This document shows, piece by piece, positions 8,082-51,677 of a DNA stretch of 64,000 nucleotides (position 1 is its first letter; each line of letters starts with the position of its first letter). The position numbers were made by a program, and so were the translations under genes. Below the pieces are notes generated by a model. It did not search any database. It was not told the origin of the DNA and saw only the letters and a list, made by a program, of their open reading frames with translations. Where the stretch lies: contig OX638326.1 of the NCBI GenBank assembly GCA_951812775.1, positions 1,810,335 to 1,874,334 of the forward strand, in the 5' to 3' direction. This DNA is from an uncultured Alphaproteobacteria bacterium (GTDB taxonomy: Bacteria > Pseudomonadota > Alphaproteobacteria > MPNO01 > UBA2964).

Positions 8082-9116
8082 TTACTCAACCAGGTCCAGA
8101 GAAATGTCGAGCGCCGGTTCAAAAATGCCGGGATCGCCCCGCCCCATGCCGCACTCGGTAGCAACGCCTGAGATCGTCGCGTATTTTCGCGCCGTTGCCA
8201 GTTTCGCAGCGCTGCCAGCCCCGTCACCAGCGTGGACAAGGCCGAGATACAGTCGGGTATCACCCATCTCCAGGCCTGTCAGAGGTGCGAAGAACGCGTC
8301 TTCGTTGGAATCCTTGGGTACCGGCATGTGGATGTACTGCACCGGGCGCCCTACCGCTTTGACAATACCATTGGCCATATCGACCAGATTAGTCATGTCA
8401 TCCGGCAGGATCATATGCTCATCTTTGGGACTGCCGTAGCACAGGTGATATCCAAGATCGATATCATCCGGCACCATATCGCCAATACGTCCGAGAACCG
8501 AAAATATCTGCTCCTTATAGCCGGGCGCCTGGTCGTAATACCCTTCCCACATCAATACCTCCTGACACACGTCCCACTGATAGGAGATGCGGTCATGCGG
8601 CAGGGCCTCCTCAATACAGGCGAATTCAGCAGCAAGATGATCCGTATAGATTTCGATGAACGTCTCATAGATCGCCGGCACCATGAAGTTGTAGGTAATC
8701 GCCAGCGGCGTCGCCATGTCGATCTGGTATTTAACGTTCGCCGGAATATCGCCCGCCTTTTGTAATTTATCAAAGGTGGCAAAGTTGCGGATCGCATCAT
8801 CGGCATAACCCGTATCGAAGTTAATGGTTTTTGGATCGACACCGTCTTTTATGGTCAGGCGCGGAATCTCATAGACCACGGTGCCGTCATATTGCGTGAA
8901 CTGAAACGGCGGCAGGGATTGATCCACTTCAAAGGCGGGATTGGCCTTAAGCTGATCCATCACAAAGCTGATCCAGCGCTGACGCCGGCCCGTTTCGCCA
9001 TCGGGTATACGCTCCGCGTGATGGCCAACCCTTTGACCTAGCGTACGAAAAACGGTTTCCGCGTCCTCCAGGGGAATGCTGCCGACCATGTGAATGACTG
9101 GCTTGATCTGGTTCAT
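8082..9116 (-). CDS. MetE/UroD-superfamily protein of unknown substrate
   Basis: A 344-residue protein that I assign to the cobalamin-independent methionine synthase/uroporphyrinogen decarboxylase-like barrel group from features such as HMVGSIPLEDAETVF at the start, ERIPDGETGRR, and a late VATECGMGRG segment where MetE-type enzymes carry a zinc Cys. It is far shorter than MetE, so it is not a full methionine synthase. The start at 9116 has an AGAG-like site; an upstream in-frame extension to 9173 has no support. It is followed within 4 bases by the MOSC gene. Function is unknown; methyl or thiol transfer is only an inference. Confidence 0.6.
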   Translation of the reverse strand: MNQIKPVIHMVGSIPLEDAETVFRTLGQRVGHHAERIPDGETGRRQRWISFVMDQLKANPAFEVDQSLPPFQFTQYDGTVVYEIPRLTIKDGVDPKTINFDTGYADDAIRNFATFDKLQKAGDIPANVKYQIDMATPLAITYNFMVPAIYETFIEIYTDHLAAEFACIEEALPHDRISYQWDVCQEVLMWEGYYDQAPGYKEQIFSVLGRIGDMVPDDIDLGYHLCYGSPKDEHMILPDDMTNLVDMANGIVKAVGRPVQYIHMPVPKDSNEDAFFAPLTGLEMGDTRLYLGLVHAGDGAGSAAKLATARKYATISGVATECGMGRGDPGIFEPALDISLDLVE

Positions 9117-9217
9117 GTTTTCTCTGCCTATCCAATGCGCTGCGAAGGTTTGACCCGGTGCGCGCCGGTTCATATAACTAACTTATAAACACTAACGCGA
9201 TTACAGGGACCTCACAA

Positions 9218-10366
9218 ATGGCCGAGACAGAAACCAGAACCGATCAACCACCTTTCCTGCATGACAGCTATCTCGCCTGGTGCGAAGAGCAACCTGTGCC
9301 GGTCATCGAAGATTTCGGAATGGATTTGTCAAAGCTCACGACGGAGCCATGGGATCTGTACGGCATGAATGGAGCGATCTGTCTGCTCAAGGGTCGTGAT
9401 GACTACAATTCGATCTTTTGCTTCGAGTTAAAGCCGGGCGCCAAATCACGCGAACTGCATCATCTCTATGAAGAGATCATCTACGTCATCGATGGATATG
9501 GTTCGACCCAGATCGAAACCCCGGATGGTGACAAACACGCCTTTGAATGGGGCCGCAACTCGCTCTTTTCGGTGCCACTCAATGCCAAGTATCAGCATTT
9601 CAACGGGTCCGGCACGGAACCCGTTCGGCTGGCCTCGGTTCACAACTTTCCGTTCCTGATCAAACTCTTCCGGAACGAAGATTTTATCTTCAATACCGAG
9701 CAGAATTTCCCGGAACGCGCCGGCCCGAACGGGTATTTCAAGGGCGACGGTCAAATGATCGAAATCCGCCCCGGCCGCCATCAATGGGAAACCAATTTTG
9801 TCGCTGACATCACAAACTTCGAACTCAAAGACTGGGCGGCGCGCGGCAAAGGCTCTTCGAGCCTGCGTTGGGTATTATCCGACAGTACGATGGGCTGCCA
9901 CACGTCACAGATCGTGCCCGGCACCTACAAAAAAGCGCATCGCCATACCTGTGGCACGAACGTCTTCACCATCGATGGTGAGGGCTATTCGGTGCTGTGG
10001 TATGAGGGCAAGGAAGAGGAACGGGTGCGGATTGACTGGGATCATGGTGTCGTGGTCACGCCGCCGGAACAGATGTTCCACCAGCACTTCAATACCGGCA
10101 CGACGCCTTCGCGCTATCTCGCCGTGCAATTCGGCACGGTGCGTTACCCGATGATCTCCGCCAAAATGAAAAAATGGACGTCCGGCAACGACACGTCGGT
10201 TAAGGATGGCGGCAATCAGATTGAGTATGAGGATCAACCCGCTGACAACCACGCCATATGGCTGGAAGAGATGGACGGTAAAGGCTACCCCTCTGAAATG
10301 GGTGAAATCTTCGATGAAGAAGCTATTCGGTCATCTGGCTATGAACGAGCCGTCGTGAAAAAGTAG
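9218..10366 (+). CDS. bicupin domain protein
   Basis: A 382-residue protein with two cupin folds. The N-terminal cupin is seen in SRELHHLYEEIIYVIDGYGSTQIE (about residues 78-100, given as pattern HHxxEE), and the second around KKAHRHTCGTNVFTIDGEGYSV with metal-binding His residues and a late His pair in FHQHFN. The size and layout resemble ring-opening dioxygenases of the gentisate/1-hydroxy-2-naphthoate group, but the match is loose and many such bicupins are only called cupin proteins. It is divergent from the MetE-like gene and is followed by an amidohydrolase, as in some aromatic degradation clusters. Confidence 0.7.
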   Translation: MAETETRTDQPPFLHDSYLAWCEEQPVPVIEDFGMDLSKLTTEPWDLYGMNGAICLLKGRDDYNSIFCFELKPGAKSRELHHLYEEIIYVIDGYGSTQIETPDGDKHAFEWGRNSLFSVPLNAKYQHFNGSGTEPVRLASVHNFPFLIKLFRNEDFIFNTEQNFPERAGPNGYFKGDGQMIEIRPGRHQWETNFVADITNFELKDWAARGKGSSSLRWVLSDSTMGCHTSQIVPGTYKKAHRHTCGTNVFTIDGEGYSVLWYEGKEEERVRIDWDHGVVVTPPEQMFHQHFNTGTTPSRYLAVQFGTVRYPMISAKMKKWTSGNDTSVKDGGNQIEYEDQPADNHAIWLEEMDGKGYPSEMGEIFDEEAIRSSGYERAVVKK

Positions 10367-10469
10367 GAATTGCAACGGGGCGATCACTGTCGCCTTAGGG
10401 TTCAATTCACGCTAGACTTCTGGCAACGCAATTCGTCTGCGAGTCCGCAGACCTGCCAGGAGAATAGAC

Positions 10470-11498
10470 ATGGCTATAGATATGCACGCCCATTGGCGCC
10501 CTGCTGAACTCATCGATGCGCTACGCCAGCGCACGTCGGAACCACGGGTTTTCACCAATGACGACGGTGTTGAAGTTTACAAAGCGCGTAACGGCGAACA
10601 GCCCGTCGACCAGGCTTTTGACAATGTCGAAACCCGTCTTGAGGAGATGGACCGGCAGGGCATCAGTACCGCTGTATTATCGCTGCTGAGCGAGTTCACC
10701 TGGATTGAGCGCCTGCCGCTCGAAGAGTCGCTGCCTTTGGTGCAGCTCTATAATGACAGCATGTCAGCAATCTGCGCCGCGCATGAAGGCCGCTTTACCG
10801 CTCTGTGCGCCCTGCCGCTGGCGGACGTCAACGCCGCTGCCGCGGAGTTCGACCGCGCGATGAAGCTACCCGGTATGGTTGGAGCGCAGGCGCCCGGCAA
10901 TGCCTTCCTGACCTACAAGGAGGCTGATGCTTTCCGGCCGGTCATCGAGGCCGCCCATCGCAACAAGGCCGCGGTTCTTATCCATTTCGCCCCGATGCCC
11001 GATGACACCTGGCCCCGCGTGCCAAAGGGCACAGACAATGCCCGACGCCGCATGGGGACATTGGATATGCAAGCCAGCCTGTCCGCCAACAACGTCACCC
11101 TTACCATGACTGACATCATGGATGAATACCCAGATGCAATGATGATCCTCCATAATCTCGGCGGGAATATTCCGTTCGAGATTGAGCGCATGGATCACCG
11201 CTGTCTGCTAGACACGCCGGATGAGGAGCTGCCCTCGAAGCGTTTCCGCGAAGCCAACGTGTTTGTCGATTGCAATTCACTTGGCCCGCACGCGATTGAG
11301 GCGGGCGTCCGCCTTTATGGTGAAGACCGTATTCTGTTCGGCACGGATGGCACCGAGTTTGGTGGTAAATGGACCAACAAGGCACTGGCCGATGCCGATC
11401 TGAGCGATCACGCCAAGGACCAAATACGCCACGGCAATGCGGTGCGGATGTTGTCCCATCTGGCACCGCTGGCAAGCTATAGTCAGGCGGCTGAATAA
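10470..11498 (+). CDS. amidohydrolase family protein (ACMSD-like)
   Basis: A 342-residue metal-dependent hydrolase or decarboxylase of the amidohydrolase-2/ACMSD type. The first metal motif is DMHAHW (H6, H8), an internal VLIHFAP supplies the next His, and FGTDG near residue 292 supplies the Asp. Members remove CO2 or hydrolyse C-C bonds in aromatic breakdown. A purine-rich CAGGAGAAT precedes the ATG. It lies 104 bases after the bicupin. The substrate is not known. Confidence 0.8.
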   Translation: MAIDMHAHWRPAELIDALRQRTSEPRVFTNDDGVEVYKARNGEQPVDQAFDNVETRLEEMDRQGISTAVLSLLSEFTWIERLPLEESLPLVQLYNDSMSAICAAHEGRFTALCALPLADVNAAAAEFDRAMKLPGMVGAQAPGNAFLTYKEADAFRPVIEAAHRNKAAVLIHFAPMPDDTWPRVPKGTDNARRRMGTLDMQASLSANNVTLTMTDIMDEYPDAMMILHNLGGNIPFEIERMDHRCLLDTPDEELPSKRFREANVFVDCNSLGPHAIEAGVRLYGEDRILFGTDGTEFGGKWTNKALADADLSDHAKDQIRHGNAVRMLSHLAPLASYSQAAE

Positions 11499-18451: not shown

Positions 18452-18736
18452 CAGACCAACTCCCAGTCAGGAACACATCTAGCCCAGCCCCAACGCGCCC
18501 GCGTCCGGTCCTCAATGACCCGCCACTGCTCGCCCAGCGGGGCCGGAAACTCCGTAAAATCAATTATTTAGGCCCTATCACCGGATTAGGCAATAGCCCC
18601 TGATACACTGATATCAATACGGAACGCATGGCTATACGCCCATTAGCACCATTTTTCCAGAAAAACGTGTTGCCTGATCAAGCGTTAGAGGACGTTTTTA
18701 AAAGCCCAAAAACCTAAAATCGTCCATCTACAGGGT

Positions 18737-19816
18737 TTACTTCTTTTTGCGTTTGCCTTTTCTTTTCGACGCTGCCCGGATCGCTGCCTTTACATCCGGC
18801 GCAACACTGGCAAGAAGGCCACCAACAAAACGCTGTGCGCTTTGTCCATCCACGAAATGATGATCGACCTTAAACCGGGCTTTACTTTCCTTCTTTACGG
18901 TCGCATTCGAGAACATATCGGCATAGGCCCTGCGAAGTGTCGCGACGACAGCCTTTGGTGTTTTTGGCGGCACCACAAACCCGAACTGTACATGATAGGC
19001 GCCGAGAACTGCTTTAATGGCCTTGAACTTGGCGGATTTCAATCCGGCAGGATTGGTTTCCCGAAGAGCCTCTTCCATCGTCGGCAATTGCGACAGGGCA
19101 GGCACACGCATGAATTTTTGCTGCGCATCCATGATGCCGCGTTGCAATACCGGTATGACGACACCTTCCTGACGGTAGCTGGCCTCGCGTGGCAGATAAC
19201 CGGAAATACCAAGATCAGTGATGTTGATTTCATCCCGACGTAACGCCTGAATCGCGCGGGCCTGACCGCGATAGCCAAATACGGCTTTGAACTTCACGCC
19301 CATCAATTCAAGAAACAAACGCGTATTGACGAAATTAGGATTGACCCCGGAGGTGCCATATACGAGTGGGGCTTTGGGTTTCAGCAAATCAGTCGGCTTG
19401 CTGACGCCCAGATTATTCCGCGCCACCAGAATTTGCGTCTGGGGCACAGCACCCAACCAGTTGAATTTAGTCAAATCATATTTGACTTTGCCTTTACTGA
19501 TGACCTGATTAGCGGCAATTCCCGCAAAGGTCCCGATGGTCAAACCGTCCGGCGTGGCGCGATTATACAGAAAGTTGGCCGCAACGATTCCAGCGGCACC
19601 GGGTCGGTTCTCGACAATAATCGTAGGCTTCCCTGGCACAAACTTGGAGAGGTAGGTTTGATAATGCCGGGCAAAAATATCGGTCGGTCCACCCGCAGCG
19701 AAGTTAATGACAATCCGGATTGTTTTCCCGGCAAAACTCGTTGTGTCGGCGGCATAAGAAGCCGGCGCACCCACCAAAACAGCAGCCGCGACCATCACAC
19801 CCGTTAGTATTCTCAT
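18737..19816 (-). CDS. TctC-family (Bug) periplasmic binding protein
   Basis: A 359-residue substrate-binding protein of the tripartite tricarboxylate transporter type. It has a signal peptide (MRILTGVMVAAAVLVGAPA, cleavage after SYA-A) and family marks IRIVINFAAGGPTDIFAR and IIVENRPGAAGIVAANFLY. The start at 19816 is backed by AGGGGAGAG upstream; an in-frame codon at 19861 lacks a signal sequence. The C-terminus ends in a very basic tail KRKGKRKKK. No membrane TctA/TctB genes are adjacent, so it is an orphan binding protein. It would bind a carboxylic acid in the periplasm; the ligand is unknown. Confidence 0.85.
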   Translation of the reverse strand: MRILTGVMVAAAVLVGAPASYAADTTSFAGKTIRIVINFAAGGPTDIFARHYQTYLSKFVPGKPTIIVENRPGAAGIVAANFLYNRATPDGLTIGTFAGIAANQVISKGKVKYDLTKFNWLGAVPQTQILVARNNLGVSKPTDLLKPKAPLVYGTSGVNPNFVNTRLFLELMGVKFKAVFGYRGQARAIQALRRDEINITDLGISGYLPREASYRQEGVVIPVLQRGIMDAQQKFMRVPALSQLPTMEEALRETNPAGLKSAKFKAIKAVLGAYHVQFGFVVPPKTPKAVVATLRRAYADMFSNATVKKESKARFKVDHHFVDGQSAQRFVGGLLASVAPDVKAAIRAASKRKGKRKKK

Positions 19817-20062
19817 TTTGTCTCTCCCCTTCATCCAACTTTTTTCAAACTCATAATTCACAGAATTCCGGATTAAGCCCCGTCAATCAATGCTATTTTT
19901 AGGGCAGGGTCGGAAGTTTATCGCCCCTTTTCCAGTCTCCGCTTCAGCCGTTTGATACCAAACACATTCGTCTGGCAATCGACGAATTTAGTCCAAGGAC
20001 CTTGAAAACACCTTTTAGTTGACTACGGTATACGAAAACATGTCATTGTTGAGGTTATCGAT

Positions 20063-21352
20063 ATGGATGAATCCACGCAAATGATCAACGTAGATCAGGT
20101 TTTTCTCGACCACGAGAATCCAAGACACGAACCGTATGAAGATCCAAGCGACGTTATCGACTACCTTTGCAAAGAGGAACAAGTCCTACAGATTGCAGAA
20201 GACATAGCAAAGTTGGGACTAAATCCACTTGAACTATTTGCGCTTATACCCGGAAGCGCCTCACCAAAATCGAAAAATGATACTTATATAGCTGCGGAAG
20301 GAAATCGGCGTCTTTGTGCGATTATGTTATTAAATGATCCCGACTTGGCACCGGCAGATAAACGCAAAGCCTTCGAAGCTGCTGCAATAAATTGGGAACC
20401 TATTTCAAAGATATTTGCCGTCGTGTTTGAAGATAGAGACTCTGTAAAACCTTGGCTAAATCGAATACACGGGGGTCAAGCTGGCGGCATCGGGAGAAGG
20501 TCATGGAACTCAGAACAAAAGTCGCGGCATAGCGGATATACCAAGAATACCCTCGCCCAAAATGTTCTCGACTACGCAGAAAAAAAGGGAATGATCACCA
20601 AAGAGAAAAGGAAGCGCAGACTGTCAACCGTGCAAAGGTTCTTAAGCAATCCTCTTATGAGAGACGCCATGGGCATTGATGCAAGTAGCGTCGAAGACAT
20701 AAAAATAATAAGGCCGCGTTCAGAATTTGACCTGATTTTAGAAAAATTTATGTCCGACACCGCAAATTTAAAAATTACCACTCGTGCTAAATTAAAGGAG
20801 ACGACCAATTATTCCCACGAGCTAAGAAATTTAGATGGGGTAACTGGAGCACCCGCCGAACCGCAACTATTGGAATCAGAGGAAACCGCCCAGTCCGCTG
20901 ATAAAACTCAAAAACGCAAAAAGAGGCCAAAGAAAATTCGTCATATCCCCTATGACGAAGACATTCATAATGCCCTCGAATCTTTGCAAAATTACAAGTT
21001 AGAGCATCTCTACTATTCCATATGTGATATTGACTTAACAAAGCACACGCCTCTTGTCTCTGTTGGCGTCTGGGCGTTTTTTGAAACCCTAACAGCGTGT
21101 GCAGGTAAGCCCGAAACCACTGATTTTCATTCCTATTTGAGTGCTCAGCGTCTAAACAACTTCGGATTAGGTGACAACAAAAAAACAAAATCAATCCGAC
21201 AAGCTGTAAAGAGAATTTCAGAGCATGGAAACACCACTAAGCATGATCAAACTTCGGCAGCCTTCAACGGCGACCAACTTGCAAATGACATGCAAACCTT
21301 GGCGCCAACGTTACTTAAACTGATCGAAATGGCCAAAAACCCTACACCCTAG
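20063..21352 (+). CDS. ParB-like domain protein of an AT-rich island
   Basis: A 429-residue protein. Residues 1-90 look like a ParB/sulfiredoxin-type domain: HENPRHEP near 17-24, a segment LQIAEDIAKLGLNPLELF, and the box AAEGNRRLCAI (EGNRRL at 79-84). The middle is rich in Lys/Arg and Glu (a basic stretch KTQKRKKRPKKIRH near residue 285), and the C-terminal part is helical and unrecognised. It is followed after 60 bases by a DNA adenine methylase; both are clearly more AT-rich than the genes around them. In known cases ParB-like domains bind or cut DNA or use nucleotides. A phage-derived or defence role is an inference from the pairing. Confidence 0.65.
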   Translation: MDESTQMINVDQVFLDHENPRHEPYEDPSDVIDYLCKEEQVLQIAEDIAKLGLNPLELFALIPGSASPKSKNDTYIAAEGNRRLCAIMLLNDPDLAPADKRKAFEAAAINWEPISKIFAVVFEDRDSVKPWLNRIHGGQAGGIGRRSWNSEQKSRHSGYTKNTLAQNVLDYAEKKGMITKEKRKRRLSTVQRFLSNPLMRDAMGIDASSVEDIKIIRPRSEFDLILEKFMSDTANLKITTRAKLKETTNYSHELRNLDGVTGAPAEPQLLESEETAQSADKTQKRKKRPKKIRHIPYDEDIHNALESLQNYKLEHLYYSICDIDLTKHTPLVSVGVWAFFETLTACAGKPETTDFHSYLSAQRLNNFGLGDNKKTKSIRQAVKRISEHGNTTKHDQTSAAFNGDQLANDMQTLAPTLLKLIEMAKNPTP

Positions 21353-21412
21353 CGCAATGTTTACCGTGCTGATAACTTGTCAAAAAGAAGTTGTTTGTAG
21401 GGCACAAAGCTA

Positions 21413-22291
21413 ATGTCAAACACGTGCTCGCCACTCCGATATCCTGGAGGAAAGTCTTGCTTACTTCCTATGGTATCAAAAATTATCAATATAAACCGTC
21501 TTCAGCGCGGCCATTATGCTGAACCTTACGCCGGCGGTTGTGGCCTCGCCCTTTCATTACTCTATGGTGGTTATGTAAGTGACATCCATATCAATGACCT
21601 CGACCCCTCTGTTTGGTGTTTCTGGAAGTCAGTACTGGACCACACCGACGACTTGATCAACTTAATAGAAACCTCACCAGTTTCTATTTCGCAGTGGCAG
21701 GTTCAGCGAGAAATTCAGCGAAAGGAAAATGTCTCTGACCCTGTCTCGCTCGGTTTCGCCACTTTTTACCTCAATCGAACTAACCGATCAGGAATAATTA
21801 AAGGAGCCGGTGTCATCGGAGGTTTCGCGCAAGACGGAAATTACAAAATGGATTGTCGTTATAATCGCACTGACCTAATACGGCGGATCAGACGCATCAA
21901 GAAATATCGGTCCCGCATTCATTTATACAATTTAGATGCCATCGAGTTTATGAATGGAAAAAACGACCTCCCTAAGAACACCTTCTTTTGCATTGATCCA
22001 CCTTATTTCAGCAAAGGGGCACGTCTTTATACGAGTTTTTATGGCACATCAGAGCATGGGGAGGTCGCTGATGCTGTCCAAAGACTAGAAACCCCTTGGA
22101 TTGTTACCTACGACAACACCGAAGAAATCACCAATCTATATAAACGGCGGCGCCAATTCATTTTTGATATTAAATATTCTGTTCAGACCAAGCGTGTTGG
22201 AAACGAGTTATTGATTGTGTCAAAAGGGCTTAAAATCACTCCCGAAATTAAATCTCGACAAATCCTCGAAAAAAAACCTCGAGCCGCTTAA
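21413..22291 (+). CDS. DNA adenine methylase (D12 class)
   Basis: A 292-residue N6-adenine DNA methyltransferase of the Dam/D12 class. It has the N-terminal PLRYPGGKS, the SAM-binding AEPYAGGCGLAL (36-47), the class-specific NRTNRSG (121-127) and the catalytic DPPY (195-198). It is AT-rich, pairs with the ParB-like gene upstream, and its stop overlaps the stop of the convergent EamA gene (TTAA, 22288-22291). No restriction endonuclease is recognisable beside it, so it is either an orphan methylase or the ParB-like protein is its partner. Confidence 0.88.
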   Translation: MSNTCSPLRYPGGKSCLLPMVSKIININRLQRGHYAEPYAGGCGLALSLLYGGYVSDIHINDLDPSVWCFWKSVLDHTDDLINLIETSPVSISQWQVQREIQRKENVSDPVSLGFATFYLNRTNRSGIIKGAGVIGGFAQDGNYKMDCRYNRTDLIRRIRRIKKYRSRIHLYNLDAIEFMNGKNDLPKNTFFCIDPPYFSKGARLYTSFYGTSEHGEVADAVQRLETPWIVTYDNTEEITNLYKRRRQFIFDIKYSVQTKRVGNELLIVSKGLKITPEIKSRQILEKKPRAA

Positions 22292-23217
22292 TTAAGACGT
22301 CGCGTCCCGGATGCCAGAAATACACCCGCGAAAATCAGTATCGTGCCAACACCGTGATACCAGAGCAGTTTCTCGCCAATAAACAGGAACGCCGCAGCAG
22401 CCGTGACGGGTGCAAGAAAATAGTGATAGGCCGCCGCTCGCCCCGGTCCGAGCCGGTCGATCCCATAGTTAAATAGTAAAATGGCAATCAGCGACGGAAA
22501 CACCGCGACATAAAGGATTGCCAGCGAGGTCTCGAGATTAAATGGCATCGGTATCCCAATCGCGAGCTCGTAGAAAAGAAACGGCAAATGAAATATCCCG
22601 CCCAGTCCGCAGAGGACGGTCAAGAACACCGCCGGGGCAGGCTTTTCGTCTATGCATTTATACATCACCGTATAGCCCGCAAGCGCAAATGCACTGCCAA
22701 GCAGGATCAGGTCACCAAAATTGAAATCGAAACTGGCAAGGATACGCCAATCGGCCTGAGCAACGATCCCAAAGACGCCGATTAGCGCGAGTATGATGCC
22801 AACTGCCTGACGCCCGCCAATACGCTCCAACCTGACCATCCAGGCGATCAGGATCACCAGTGCCGGGATCAGCGACTGAATGATCGCGCCATTGACCGCG
22901 ACGGTCCATTCCATCGCAACGAAGCTCACCAACGCCCCGGAGACCGGCATGAGAAACGCCATCAGCGCATAGATCCAGAAATTGCGCCGGATCATTGGCC
23001 ATTCAGCGATTACCCCGCGCCAGGTAAAACACAGCAAGAGGACCGCCGCCCCACCCCAGCGCCACAGCGACAACACCGAAGGCGGGTACTGCTCATACAG
23101 CGCCCGAACGATGACGAAGTTAATCCCAATAAAAAAAATCGCCAGAAAGGCGGCAATATGGGGAGAACGGAAAATCCCACCATTGGCGGCGGTGGGCACA
23201 GGCAAGGGATCAGACAT
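22288..23217 (-). CDS. EamA/DMT-family transporter
   Basis: A 309-residue inner-membrane protein with about ten transmembrane helices arranged as two EamA repeats, of the drug/metabolite transporter superfamily. Features include an early FIGINFVIVRALYEQYPPSVLSLWRW and a C-terminal repeat with YHYFLAPVTAAAAFLFIGE. Start ATG 23217 (MSDPLPV) is chosen; an in-frame upstream codon at 23244 adds a basic leader without support. It exports or imports a small metabolite, not identifiable from sequence. Confidence 0.85.
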   Translation of the reverse strand: MSDPLPVPTAANGGIFRSPHIAAFLAIFFIGINFVIVRALYEQYPPSVLSLWRWGGAAVLLLCFTWRGVIAEWPMIRRNFWIYALMAFLMPVSGALVSFVAMEWTVAVNGAIIQSLIPALVILIAWMVRLERIGGRQAVGIILALIGVFGIVAQADWRILASFDFNFGDLILLGSAFALAGYTVMYKCIDEKPAPAVFLTVLCGLGGIFHLPFLFYELAIGIPMPFNLETSLAILYVAVFPSLIAILLFNYGIDRLGPGRAAAYHYFLAPVTAAAAFLFIGEKLLWYHGVGTILIFAGVFLASGTRRLN

Positions 23218-49267: not shown

Positions 49268-50557
49268 ATGTTTAACGGAATTATCCTCAATGAAAAGGAA
49301 CTGCACCGGGCAAAAGCACGCGTCGAATTGCTTTCAAACCGACTTTCTTCCAAAGGTCAACTTGACCAACTCGTAATTGGACTCCCACCTGAAATTGTCA
49401 ATCAAGTAACGGAAATGATGATAATTGAGGGGAAGGAGCTGACGAGGGCGATTGATGCATATGAGTCTACAAAAAATACCCACAACCCAGCTAAACTCGT
49501 TGAACTTGCTCATAATAATCCCGGACTTACCTTAATTATCGCGCGAATCGCTATCGGACATTCGCAAAAACAACTTGCTTGGCGCTTAGGGGTCAAAGAA
49601 CAACAAGTTCAACGATATGAGGCCGACCGATATAGCTCTATTAGTATGAAAAACTATACTCGAATAGCTGCACTTTTGGGCGTTCGCATTGAAGCTACAA
49701 TTACCAAAGACCACGCGTTCAGAGGTCTAGACGAAGTGATCGACGATGTCTCGAAAACAGATATCAAAAAAATTCTTAAACATGGCCGCAATAGTTGCTG
49801 GTTTTCCGACGAGATGGACGAGGCCAAACTACGTCAAAACATTGCGGAAAACCGAATTCAGTATGGAAGCCCCTCACTTTTACGTACTGGCATAAATGTT
49901 AAAGACCACAGCGAAGACGTTCTGCTCCACGCTTGGCGTGCTCAAGTTTCAAAGATAGCGCGCAATGTGATCTCTTTAGAACCGCCAATTGAATTTGATC
50001 CTCTGGAAATTCGCTGGCTACCAGACTTAGTTCGCTTAAGCATTCACGATGACGGTCCCGTACGAGCTATGGAAATGCTTAAGAAATATGGAATTTTGCT
50101 TATTTATGAGCCACAGATTCCTGGCTTAGCTATAGACGGCGCGACCTTTTTAGAAGCTGGTGTTCCAGTCATCGCTATGACCCTTAGGAAAGACACAATC
50201 GATAATTTTTGGTACACATTGTTCCACGAACTTGGTCATACGATCCTGCATTTTAGGAAGGGTCTTGAAGCAGGTTTTTTTGATCAGTTAGAAGCCGATT
50301 CTGCCGATAAGATAGAGAAAGAAGCAGACCTTTTCGCTTCTAACATATTAATTTCAGAAGAAAGATGGCACCGGTCAACTGCCCGGATTGCTCGAAAGCC
50401 TTCTATAATCGAAGCCTTCGCGAGGGAGGTTGGAATTCATCCTGCAATTGTCTTCGGGAGAATTCGCAAAGAACAAGAAAACTACGCAATTTTCTCGAAT
50501 AAATTAGGGAGAGATACCGTACGCAAACAGTTTTCAGGGCTAAACTTGAAAGGATGA
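49268..50557 (+). CDS. HTH (XRE) regulator fused to ImmA/IrrE metallopeptidase
   Basis: A 429-residue protein. Residues 1-85 are helical and unrecognised; an XRE-type helix-turn-helix spans about 86-140 (SQKQLAWRLGVKEQQVQRYE is its core); a linker follows; the C-terminal third is an M78 peptidase with HELGH at 320-324 and a third acidic ligand in EKEADLFASNIL. In known cases such proteins repress their own operon and cut a partner when triggered. The gene is AT-rich, unlike its neighbours, is preceded by inverted repeats, and is followed 4 bases later by a beta-family gene. The ribosome binding site is weak. Confidence 0.85.
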   Translation: MFNGIILNEKELHRAKARVELLSNRLSSKGQLDQLVIGLPPEIVNQVTEMMIIEGKELTRAIDAYESTKNTHNPAKLVELAHNNPGLTLIIARIAIGHSQKQLAWRLGVKEQQVQRYEADRYSSISMKNYTRIAALLGVRIEATITKDHAFRGLDEVIDDVSKTDIKKILKHGRNSCWFSDEMDEAKLRQNIAENRIQYGSPSLLRTGINVKDHSEDVLLHAWRAQVSKIARNVISLEPPIEFDPLEIRWLPDLVRLSIHDDGPVRAMEMLKKYGILLIYEPQIPGLAIDGATFLEAGVPVIAMTLRKDTIDNFWYTLFHELGHTILHFRKGLEAGFFDQLEADSADKIEKEADLFASNILISEERWHRSTARIARKPSIIEAFAREVGIHPAIVFGRIRKEQENYAIFSNKLGRDTVRKQFSGLNLKG

Positions 50558-50561
50558 TCCG

Positions 50562-51677
50562 ATGCTCCCTTATTTTGTAGGACTACGCTTTAAGCAGGGG
50601 GAAATTGCCGCTTCCAACAAACTCCCGGAACAAATCCGGTCTAATTTCACACCTTATTTTATTATCCCGCCTCCTAAGGAAGCAGATAAGGAAGCAGAGG
50701 GTGGTCTCAAGTTACCATATATTGAAGATAAAATTGCCTACTCTATTGGCGAGAAAATAGGAAAATATTGGCATTCTCTGCCAGGATTTATTGATACTCG
50801 TTTTGGTTCAGAATATCTGAACCAAGAAGACATCGCACAGGTTTTCGTTCAGGCTCAACACCGAAACCCAAACCTTGCCCCGGTAGTTTCAAGCGCGCAA
50901 CTCTCCAATCGATTCTACCAAAGTTTTGTTAATCCAGCACGTTCAGGACTAGGAATTCGGGTCGATTATGATGACATCGACGTCGGAGACATTCTAACAA
51001 GAATTCATACCCTGAATTGTTCTCCTGAGGATTGCGTTATATTTATAGATTTTACGGGTGCGAATATTACTCCTGAGTTGGCAACGGGTTCGGTCACGGG
51101 AATAATAGATGATCTTGGAGATGCTGCAGCCTGGCGCCGCATAGTTCCACAATTCTCGGACTTCCCACTAGCCAACCCAGCTAAACCAGACAGCAGTGTC
51201 TTCATACCACGGGACGGTTGGAAAACGTTCCTTGCCTCGTTAAACGAGTGCTCGGTTCCCAAAAACACACTCGGGTACGGTGATTTTGGCGCTGATTGCG
51301 GACATTTTAAGTTCCCCAAAAAGTCTGGTGGTAAAGCAATTCGACACCTACGCTATACAACAGAAACTGATACTTTGGTTCAACGAGGACCAGATATCGG
51401 GAAACACGCTGTTGCCATGCAAGCCGTATGTCAAAAAATAATTGAAAACAGCGTGTATGCTGGCTCGTCATTCTCTTACGCTGATCGACAAATCATGCGG
51501 ATTGCAAATGGCCTCGAAACTTGTGGCAATCCCTCAAATTGGAGGGAATGGAATACCGCCCACCACATTACTCGAGTTGTCCATGACCTGAGTATGATGT
51601 TTGGGACAACGTACGAGACAGTTCCAAAAGAGGAGTACTTGGAACAGGCTACGCTCTTTGCAGAGAAAATAGACTAG
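50562..51677 (+). CDS. beta-family protein (T4-like Beta_protein), putative partner or effector
   Basis: A 371-residue protein that I match to the beta protein family: the start YFVGLRFKQGEIAASNKLPE plus TPYFIIPPP resembles the family opening (ilKwKxGE..AL..L...i.PlieiPP), and the end has NWREWNTAHHITRVVHDL, where the family has a conserved nHHlt. The RYTTETDTLVQRG segment also fits. AAAGGA precedes the ATG, 4 bases after the HTH/peptidase stop, so the two are cotranscribed. Biochemical function is unknown. Its stop (TAG, 51675-51677) directly abuts the stop of the convergent oxidoreductase gene. Confidence 0.7.
   Translation: MLPYFVGLRFKQGEIAASNKLPEQIRSNFTPYFIIPPPKEADKEAEGGLKLPYIEDKIAYSIGEKIGKYWHSLPGFIDTRFGSEYLNQEDIAQVFVQAQHRNPNLAPVVSSAQLSNRFYQSFVNPARSGLGIRVDYDDIDVGDILTRIHTLNCSPEDCVIFIDFTGANITPELATGSVTGIIDDLGDAAAWRRIVPQFSDFPLANPAKPDSSVFIPRDGWKTFLASLNECSVPKNTLGYGDFGADCGHFKFPKKSGGKAIRHLRYTTETDTLVQRGPDIGKHAVAMQAVCQKIIENSVYAGSSFSYADRQIMRIANGLETCGNPSNWREWNTAHHITRVVHDLSMMFGTTYETVPKEEYLEQATLFAEKID

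Follow-up and report, generated by a model that had tools for sequence, protein, structure and literature searches.

The locus and its composition

Two genes, here called A and B, lie side by side on the forward strand of the window, the whole stretch of 64,000 nucleotides that was analysed. Gene A (20063..21352, +) is assigned to PD-lambda-5_A by PADLOC, alignment and structure models, and encodes a protein of 429 residues with a ParB/Srx-like N-terminus, a helical middle and a HEPN-like C-terminus. Gene B (21413..22291, +), assigned to PD-lambda-5_B by PADLOC and alignment, encodes a D12-class adenine-N6 DNA methylase of 292 residues. In the list of open reading frames both genes are intact and free of internal stops, and the gap between them is 60 bp.

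The GC content is 0.435 (43.5%) in A and 0.438 (43.8%) in B, compared with 53.6% for the whole window, and the GC3 values are 0.42 and 0.43. The 46 long open reading frames of the window, which served as the reference, have a mean GC of 0.54 (sd 0.04) and a mean GC3 of 0.59 (sd 0.07). Only one other part of the window, a cassette at 49.3-51.7 kb, is equally AT-rich. The flanks carry a DAHP-synthase-like gene, a TctC-like gene and an EamA-type transporter, all named from their sequences. There is no restriction enzyme gene adjoining the pair, no tRNA was found near it and no sigma-70-type promoter was matched upstream of A. The first-pass annotation, which had described two AT-rich genes amid metabolic genes and accompanied by no restriction enzyme, is thus borne out. 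The TctC-type solute-binding protein beside the pair has 29 matches in the source genome, and genes of this type are numerous in relatives too.

The insertion and the empty site

The inserted DNA extends approximately over 19862..22304, as judged by comparison with the congeneric genome G007, in which the flanks are adjacent. The left flanking gene occupies 18737-19861, and the right flank starts at 22305. The flanking proteins of G007 are 85% (left) and 83% (right) identical to those of the window, and their matched parts are 97 bases apart with no A-B pair between them; the DNA similarity ends at window position 19741 and picks up again at 22305. In two more genomes, G003 and G002, position 18669 is joined to 22310 and 22307, respectively, within about 30 bases, which means that the TctC-like gene is missing there as well. 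A scan of 60 related genomes, 8 of them of the same genus, gave no match to A, and the three same-genus genomes searched for B gave none either. The pair is a compact gain in this lineage, because the flanks adjoin without it in G007, because the DNA to either side is joined without it in G003 and G002, and because A is missing from the relatives. The transferred unit proposed by the first-pass annotation is supported by the empty site in G007. The 2.4 kb insert and its immediate surroundings hold no integrase and no recognisable phage gene, and no 9-base repeat is common to both of its ends, so that no mobility signature was found.

The second AT-rich cassette (49268-51677, +; GC 0.43-0.45) is located 27 kb from the pair and is PD-lambda-2-like. 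Its Xre-ImmA/IrrE protein matches PD-Lambda-2_B (E 7.6e-66) and its Beta_protein matches PD-Lambda-2_C (E 9.2e-26); a HigB-like A gene was not seen upstream of them. In the PD-lambda-2 system of E. coli, the B protein alone is toxic and the A protein rescues. The flanks of this cassette lie 16 bases apart in G007, where the cassette is absent. Just upstream of 49268, a TTGACA box is overlapped by the palindrome-like sequence ACAACAACAATTTTGTTGTG, which could possibly be an autoregulatory operator.

Family assignment

Protein A matches the PADLOC profile PD-Lambda-5_A (PDLC04000) with an E-value of 8e-177, its residues 1-425 aligning with positions 1-425 of 428, and protein B matches PD-Lambda-5_B (PDLC04018) with an E-value of 1.5e-121, residues 1-284 aligning with positions 1-284 of 291. 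Searches of Pfam and NCBIfam with A returned no family, and a PDB sequence search with the A profile returned nothing. By its profile matches, the A-B locus is a member of the already described PD-lambda-5 anti-phage system, and by the empty site it was acquired horizontally. PD-lambda-5 was discovered when a genomic library of E. coli was put through a functional selection against lambda-vir (Vassallo 2022, PMC9519451); its broad anti-phage protection in E. coli was shown experimentally, and its authors regard it as an RM+Abi system in a compact prophage version. Of the interpretation given by the first-pass annotation, horizontal transfer and the option of a defence system stand, the latter supported by the full-length match to a system that is experimentally anti-phage in E. 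coli, but the system was not recognised as one already named. New here are the genomic setting, the empty site and the proposal, made at the level of domains, that A has a non-canonical HEPN-like domain.

Homologous loci

The survey of neighbourhoods, advised by the first-pass annotation, was run by scans with A alone and gave 38 genome and 25 IMG/VR loci; the A reading frame was recovered in 60 of these, which are not all independent because some duplicate one another (e.g. L029/L067 and L072/L073). B lies directly downstream of A on the same strand, forming an A-B unit, in 53 of the 60 loci. B is 351 bp away in L077 and convergent in L086; three loci (L062, L075 and L078) are cut off by the end of the contig or of the available stretch, and no B is seen in L041 and L058. 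The A frame is broken in three loci (L045, L047 and L048). Locus L041 carries two intact tandem A genes (8371-9648 and 9953-11278), and its close relatives L043 and L068 retain B. Since no B was detected in the whole draft genome of L041 either, A seems to be tolerated without B, at least at the resolution of a draft genome, and the tandem pair speaks against B being strictly an antidote.

The hosts are Alpha-, Beta- and Gammaproteobacteria, Actinomycetota, and metagenome-assembled genomes of Acidobacteriota and Zixibacteria. Copies on phages and plasmids are found in Paracoccus phage Pkon1, a Pseudomonas phage and a conjugative Kosakonia plasmid, and a homologue of A in a Vibrio phage carries the label PD-Lambda-5_A in its record. 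Viral contigs gave no relative in a single-sequence scan and 25 in an alignment-based scan. Taken together, the reading frames that surround the pair in 16 genome loci of the survey are of mixed kinds: head-tail adaptors, in small number, and a head protease occur, and so do ABC transporters and purine biosynthesis genes. Confinement to ordinary prophages, which the first-pass annotation had taken to speak against its reading, was rejected because the pair is also found outside prophages, in the chromosomal cassette described here and on the Kosakonia plasmid, and because the flanks are mixed.

The phage and prophage copies and the 25 IMG/VR contigs speak for the proposal that the pair is a phage-derived methylation module, in which B would shield phage DNA from host restriction, A would be a regulator or an anti-defence factor, and the local copy would be the relic of a degraded prophage. 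A copy in E. coli is situated beside the antiterminator Q, and methylase fusions of the ParB-CTPase fold are over-represented in prophages (PMC12704722). This origin is nevertheless improbable: no other recognisable phage gene accompanies the insert, the empty site is clean, the E. coli system is anti-phage when cloned alone, and a further copy resides on a conjugative plasmid.

Protein B

Protein B has the motifs of a D12/Dam-type adenine-N6 methylase, namely PLRYPGGK in the motif I region and DPPY, the catalytic motif IV (residues 195-198; 21995..22006, +), which is invariant in the B alignment. Together with the full-length homology and the intact reading frame, these motifs agree with the complete adenine methylase described in the first-pass annotation. 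B also aligns with the solved adenine methylases 7m6b and 2dpm. The NCBIfam dam model (TIGR00571) matches B with an E-value of 1.3e-13, a match too weak for the cut-off of the model, and a Pfam search with B gave no match.

Mrr attacks methylated DNA. No Mrr-type nuclease was found in this genome, and there is therefore no sign that methylation is self-toxic via Mrr. For the published work, PD-lambda-5 was cloned and studied in a strain from which the mrr region had been removed (PMC9519451), which in the reading of the present analysis fits a real methylation activity.

Two E. coli loci that resemble mobile elements or prophages (L115, 6930-9579, and L116, 3924-6636) encode an adenine methylase and an AAA/OLD-like ATPase, and no A. 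The methylase of L115 is a full match to PD-Lambda-5_B (E 2.6e-122). The two loci suggest a partner exchange of the methylase, and B is not dedicated to A, because it occurs in E. coli beside this ATPase without A.

Protein A: the N-terminal and middle parts

A model of the whole protein, obtained with AlphaFold2 on 33 homologues, has a mean pLDDT of 88.6 but a pTM of 0.52, so that it gives no reliable picture of how the domains lie towards one another. The N-terminal ParB-CTPase/Srx-like domain comprises about residues 1-144 (20063..20494, +). The VIA-align match of residues 4-144 to CTPgammaS-bound ParB (7bnr) has a Z-score of 9.7, over 95 residues at 2.3 Å. Two short motifs of this domain are invariant in all 33 homologues. 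NPR (residues 19-21; 20117..20125, +) is, by analogy with ParB, likely Box I, or the C motif, of the nucleotide pocket, and EGNRR (residues 79-83; 20297..20311, +), the ParB-type box already noticed in the first-pass annotation, is likely Box II, or the P motif. A thus combines the ParB-CTPase fold with both nucleotide-binding boxes of the ParB/Srx group. NTP binding by other ParB-fold proteins depends on the Box II arginine (PMC12704722).

The central helical region (about residues 150-257; 20510..20833, +) is defined by the helices of the model and by looser structural matches to ParB, Noc and KorB, which reach residue 254-263. As in those three proteins, it is possibly the DNA-binding part. 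Structural matches of A other than those to ParB/Srx and HEPN proteins are weaker or resemble generic helical bundles.

The fold and the box might also be those of a plain ParB partition or nucleoid protein that happens to stand next to an unrelated methylase. No parA partner is found beside A, whose neighbours are the TctC-like gene, B and the EamA-type transporter, and in the homologous loci, too, the neighbour is B and not ParA; a canonical partition ParB was rejected on these grounds. The HEPN-like C-terminus, the absence of A from the relatives and the full-length PD-lambda-5 match leave the partition function, which the first-pass annotation had named as an objection to its own reading, with hardly any credibility.

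Protein A: the C-terminal domain

Structure prediction of the C-terminal half, another check advised by the first-pass annotation, produced a helical, HEPN-like domain at residues 298-429 (20954..21349, +; domain-only model, pLDDT 91.3, pTM 0.86). The 12 best VIA-align matches are all of the HEPN fold (Z 7.5-6.3), as are 18 of the best 19; they include HepT (Z 7.5), AF_0298 (Z 7.3), YutE, SO_3166, sacsin and Csm6, and the first clearly non-HEPN entry has a Z-score of 5.3. The model thus makes a HEPN fold probable, short of certain, because the Z-scores are below 8 for a helical bundle and the Foldseek E-values, 0.5 or worse, are insignificant alone. A search of a viral structure library with this domain gave nothing significant.

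The segment GNTTKH (residues 389-394; 21227..21244, +) is the topological equivalent of the HEPN motif RNxxxH with Gly replacing Arg, an equivalence set by topology and sequence pattern without residue-level superposition. G389, T392 and H394 are conserved in 33 of 33 homologues, K393 in 32, N390 in 31 and R384 in 29, and position 341 is Glu or Asp in all 33. The canonical Rx4-6H motif is thus incomplete: the His and the Asn that follows the Arg are retained, and the Arg itself is Gly in all 33 close homologues, which makes HEPN catalysis, or RNase activity, of A doubtful. HEPN domains that have lost the motif exist and may act by RNA binding (Anantharaman 2013, PMC3710099). In a second C-terminal subtype, an RxxLE-like motif in place of WxxxE, together with a conserved His, is found in 20 of 22 diverged homologues, so that the Glu and His equivalent to E341 and H394 are conserved there. 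When profiles are compared, the two subtypes are linked across the entire C-terminal domain with an E-value of 1.1e-4 and a probability of 56%, and as whole proteins with a probability of 100%.

It is tentatively proposed that A is a non-canonical HEPN-like effector, which has lost the Arg of Rx4-6H and kept E341, K393 and H394, and that at least two C-terminal subtypes (GNxTKH and RxxLE...H) are combined with one conserved ParB sensor and one methylase. If true, A would be an effector gated by its ParB part and a nucleotide, and its mode of stopping infection would be new or non-catalytic.

The missing arginine is also compatible with A being a direct DNA-targeting restriction factor, whose ParB/Srx domain would nick unmethylated phage DNA while the HEPN-like domain just dimerises and the cell survives. 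A paper of 2026 (PMC12839542) credits proteins of the ParB/Srx superfamily with the ability to nick single-stranded DNA and describes ATP binding as their negative switch. No nuclease motif was identified in A, however, and the strong conservation of E341 and H394, with equivalents in the second subtype, is more than a mere dimeriser needs; direct restriction is therefore rather unlikely.

Proposed mechanism

The best explanation, which is considered probable although far from secure, is that the system follows the logic of restriction-modification with an abortive, HEPN-like effector in place of a DNA-cutting enzyme: B marks self, and A senses unmarked DNA. B would methylate adenines at a fixed motif of the host chromosome as the self mark. 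A would bind an NTP via its ParB/Srx fold and DNA via its middle part, and unmethylated phage DNA, incoming or replicating, would turn it active. The target of the C-terminal HEPN-like domains would then be RNA, which they would either cleave with a non-canonical active site or bind, and phage production would be halted, probably with the loss of the infected cell. Such a division of labour, with A as sensor and effector and B as the self-marking enzyme, fits the anatomy suggested by the sequences and models.

The sensor-plus-effector reading is favoured because of the full-length PADLOC matches, the protection by PD-lambda-5 in E. coli, the mrr-deleted strain used there, the A-B linkage, the ParB-like N-terminus, the HEPN-like C-terminus, the ParB-HEPN combinations listed in 2013 (PMC3710099) and the empty site. 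Against it stand the loss of the HEPN Arg, the low HEPN scores, the occurrence of A without B in L041 and that of B without A in E. coli. The domain assignment makes the mechanism of PD-lambda-5 testable: does a ParB-type NTP switch read the methylation status and fire a HEPN-like effector?

Comparison with known systems

The locus shares with PD-lambda-5 (PMC9519451) the nearly full-length likeness of both genes and the side-by-side arrangement of a ParB-like A and an adenine methylase B. The known system belongs to an E. coli prophage, whereas the present pair is an isolated cassette in the chromosome of an alphaproteobacterium, has a clean empty site for comparison and adds to the settings in which PD-lambda-5 is found. 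The E. coli copy used for comparison (L128), a ParB/Srx protein with a DNA adenine methylase, is the prophage homologue beside antiterminator Q and not the founding protein. It carries the same PADLOC family names as the window pair, but it matches the PADLOC models of the other, diverged group, whereas the window A is of the GNxTKH subtype. The A proteins are just 33% identical over 96 residues and the B proteins 45%, and B is convergent to A in L128 and on the same strand as A in the window.

The E. coli pairs of L115 and L116 have a methylase of the same family, but an OLD-like ATPase takes the place of the ParB-HEPN protein. The SspE/GmrSD/BrxU-type ParB(DUF262)-HNH restriction enzymes have a ParB-like sensor domain fused to an effector. 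They contain an HNH nuclease and no dedicated methylase, in contrast to the HEPN-like domain and the methylase of A-B. In GmrSD, the fusion of the ParB-like domain to the effector is described in PMC12839542. A ParB fused to HEPN (Saro_3948) and a HEPN protein (MAE_28990) in an operon with ParB and a DNA methylase were listed in 2013 (PMC3710099), and these fusions and operons show the same domain combination as A-B. The Saro_3948 type is listed as mostly active, with the motif present, whereas A has lost the motif arginine.
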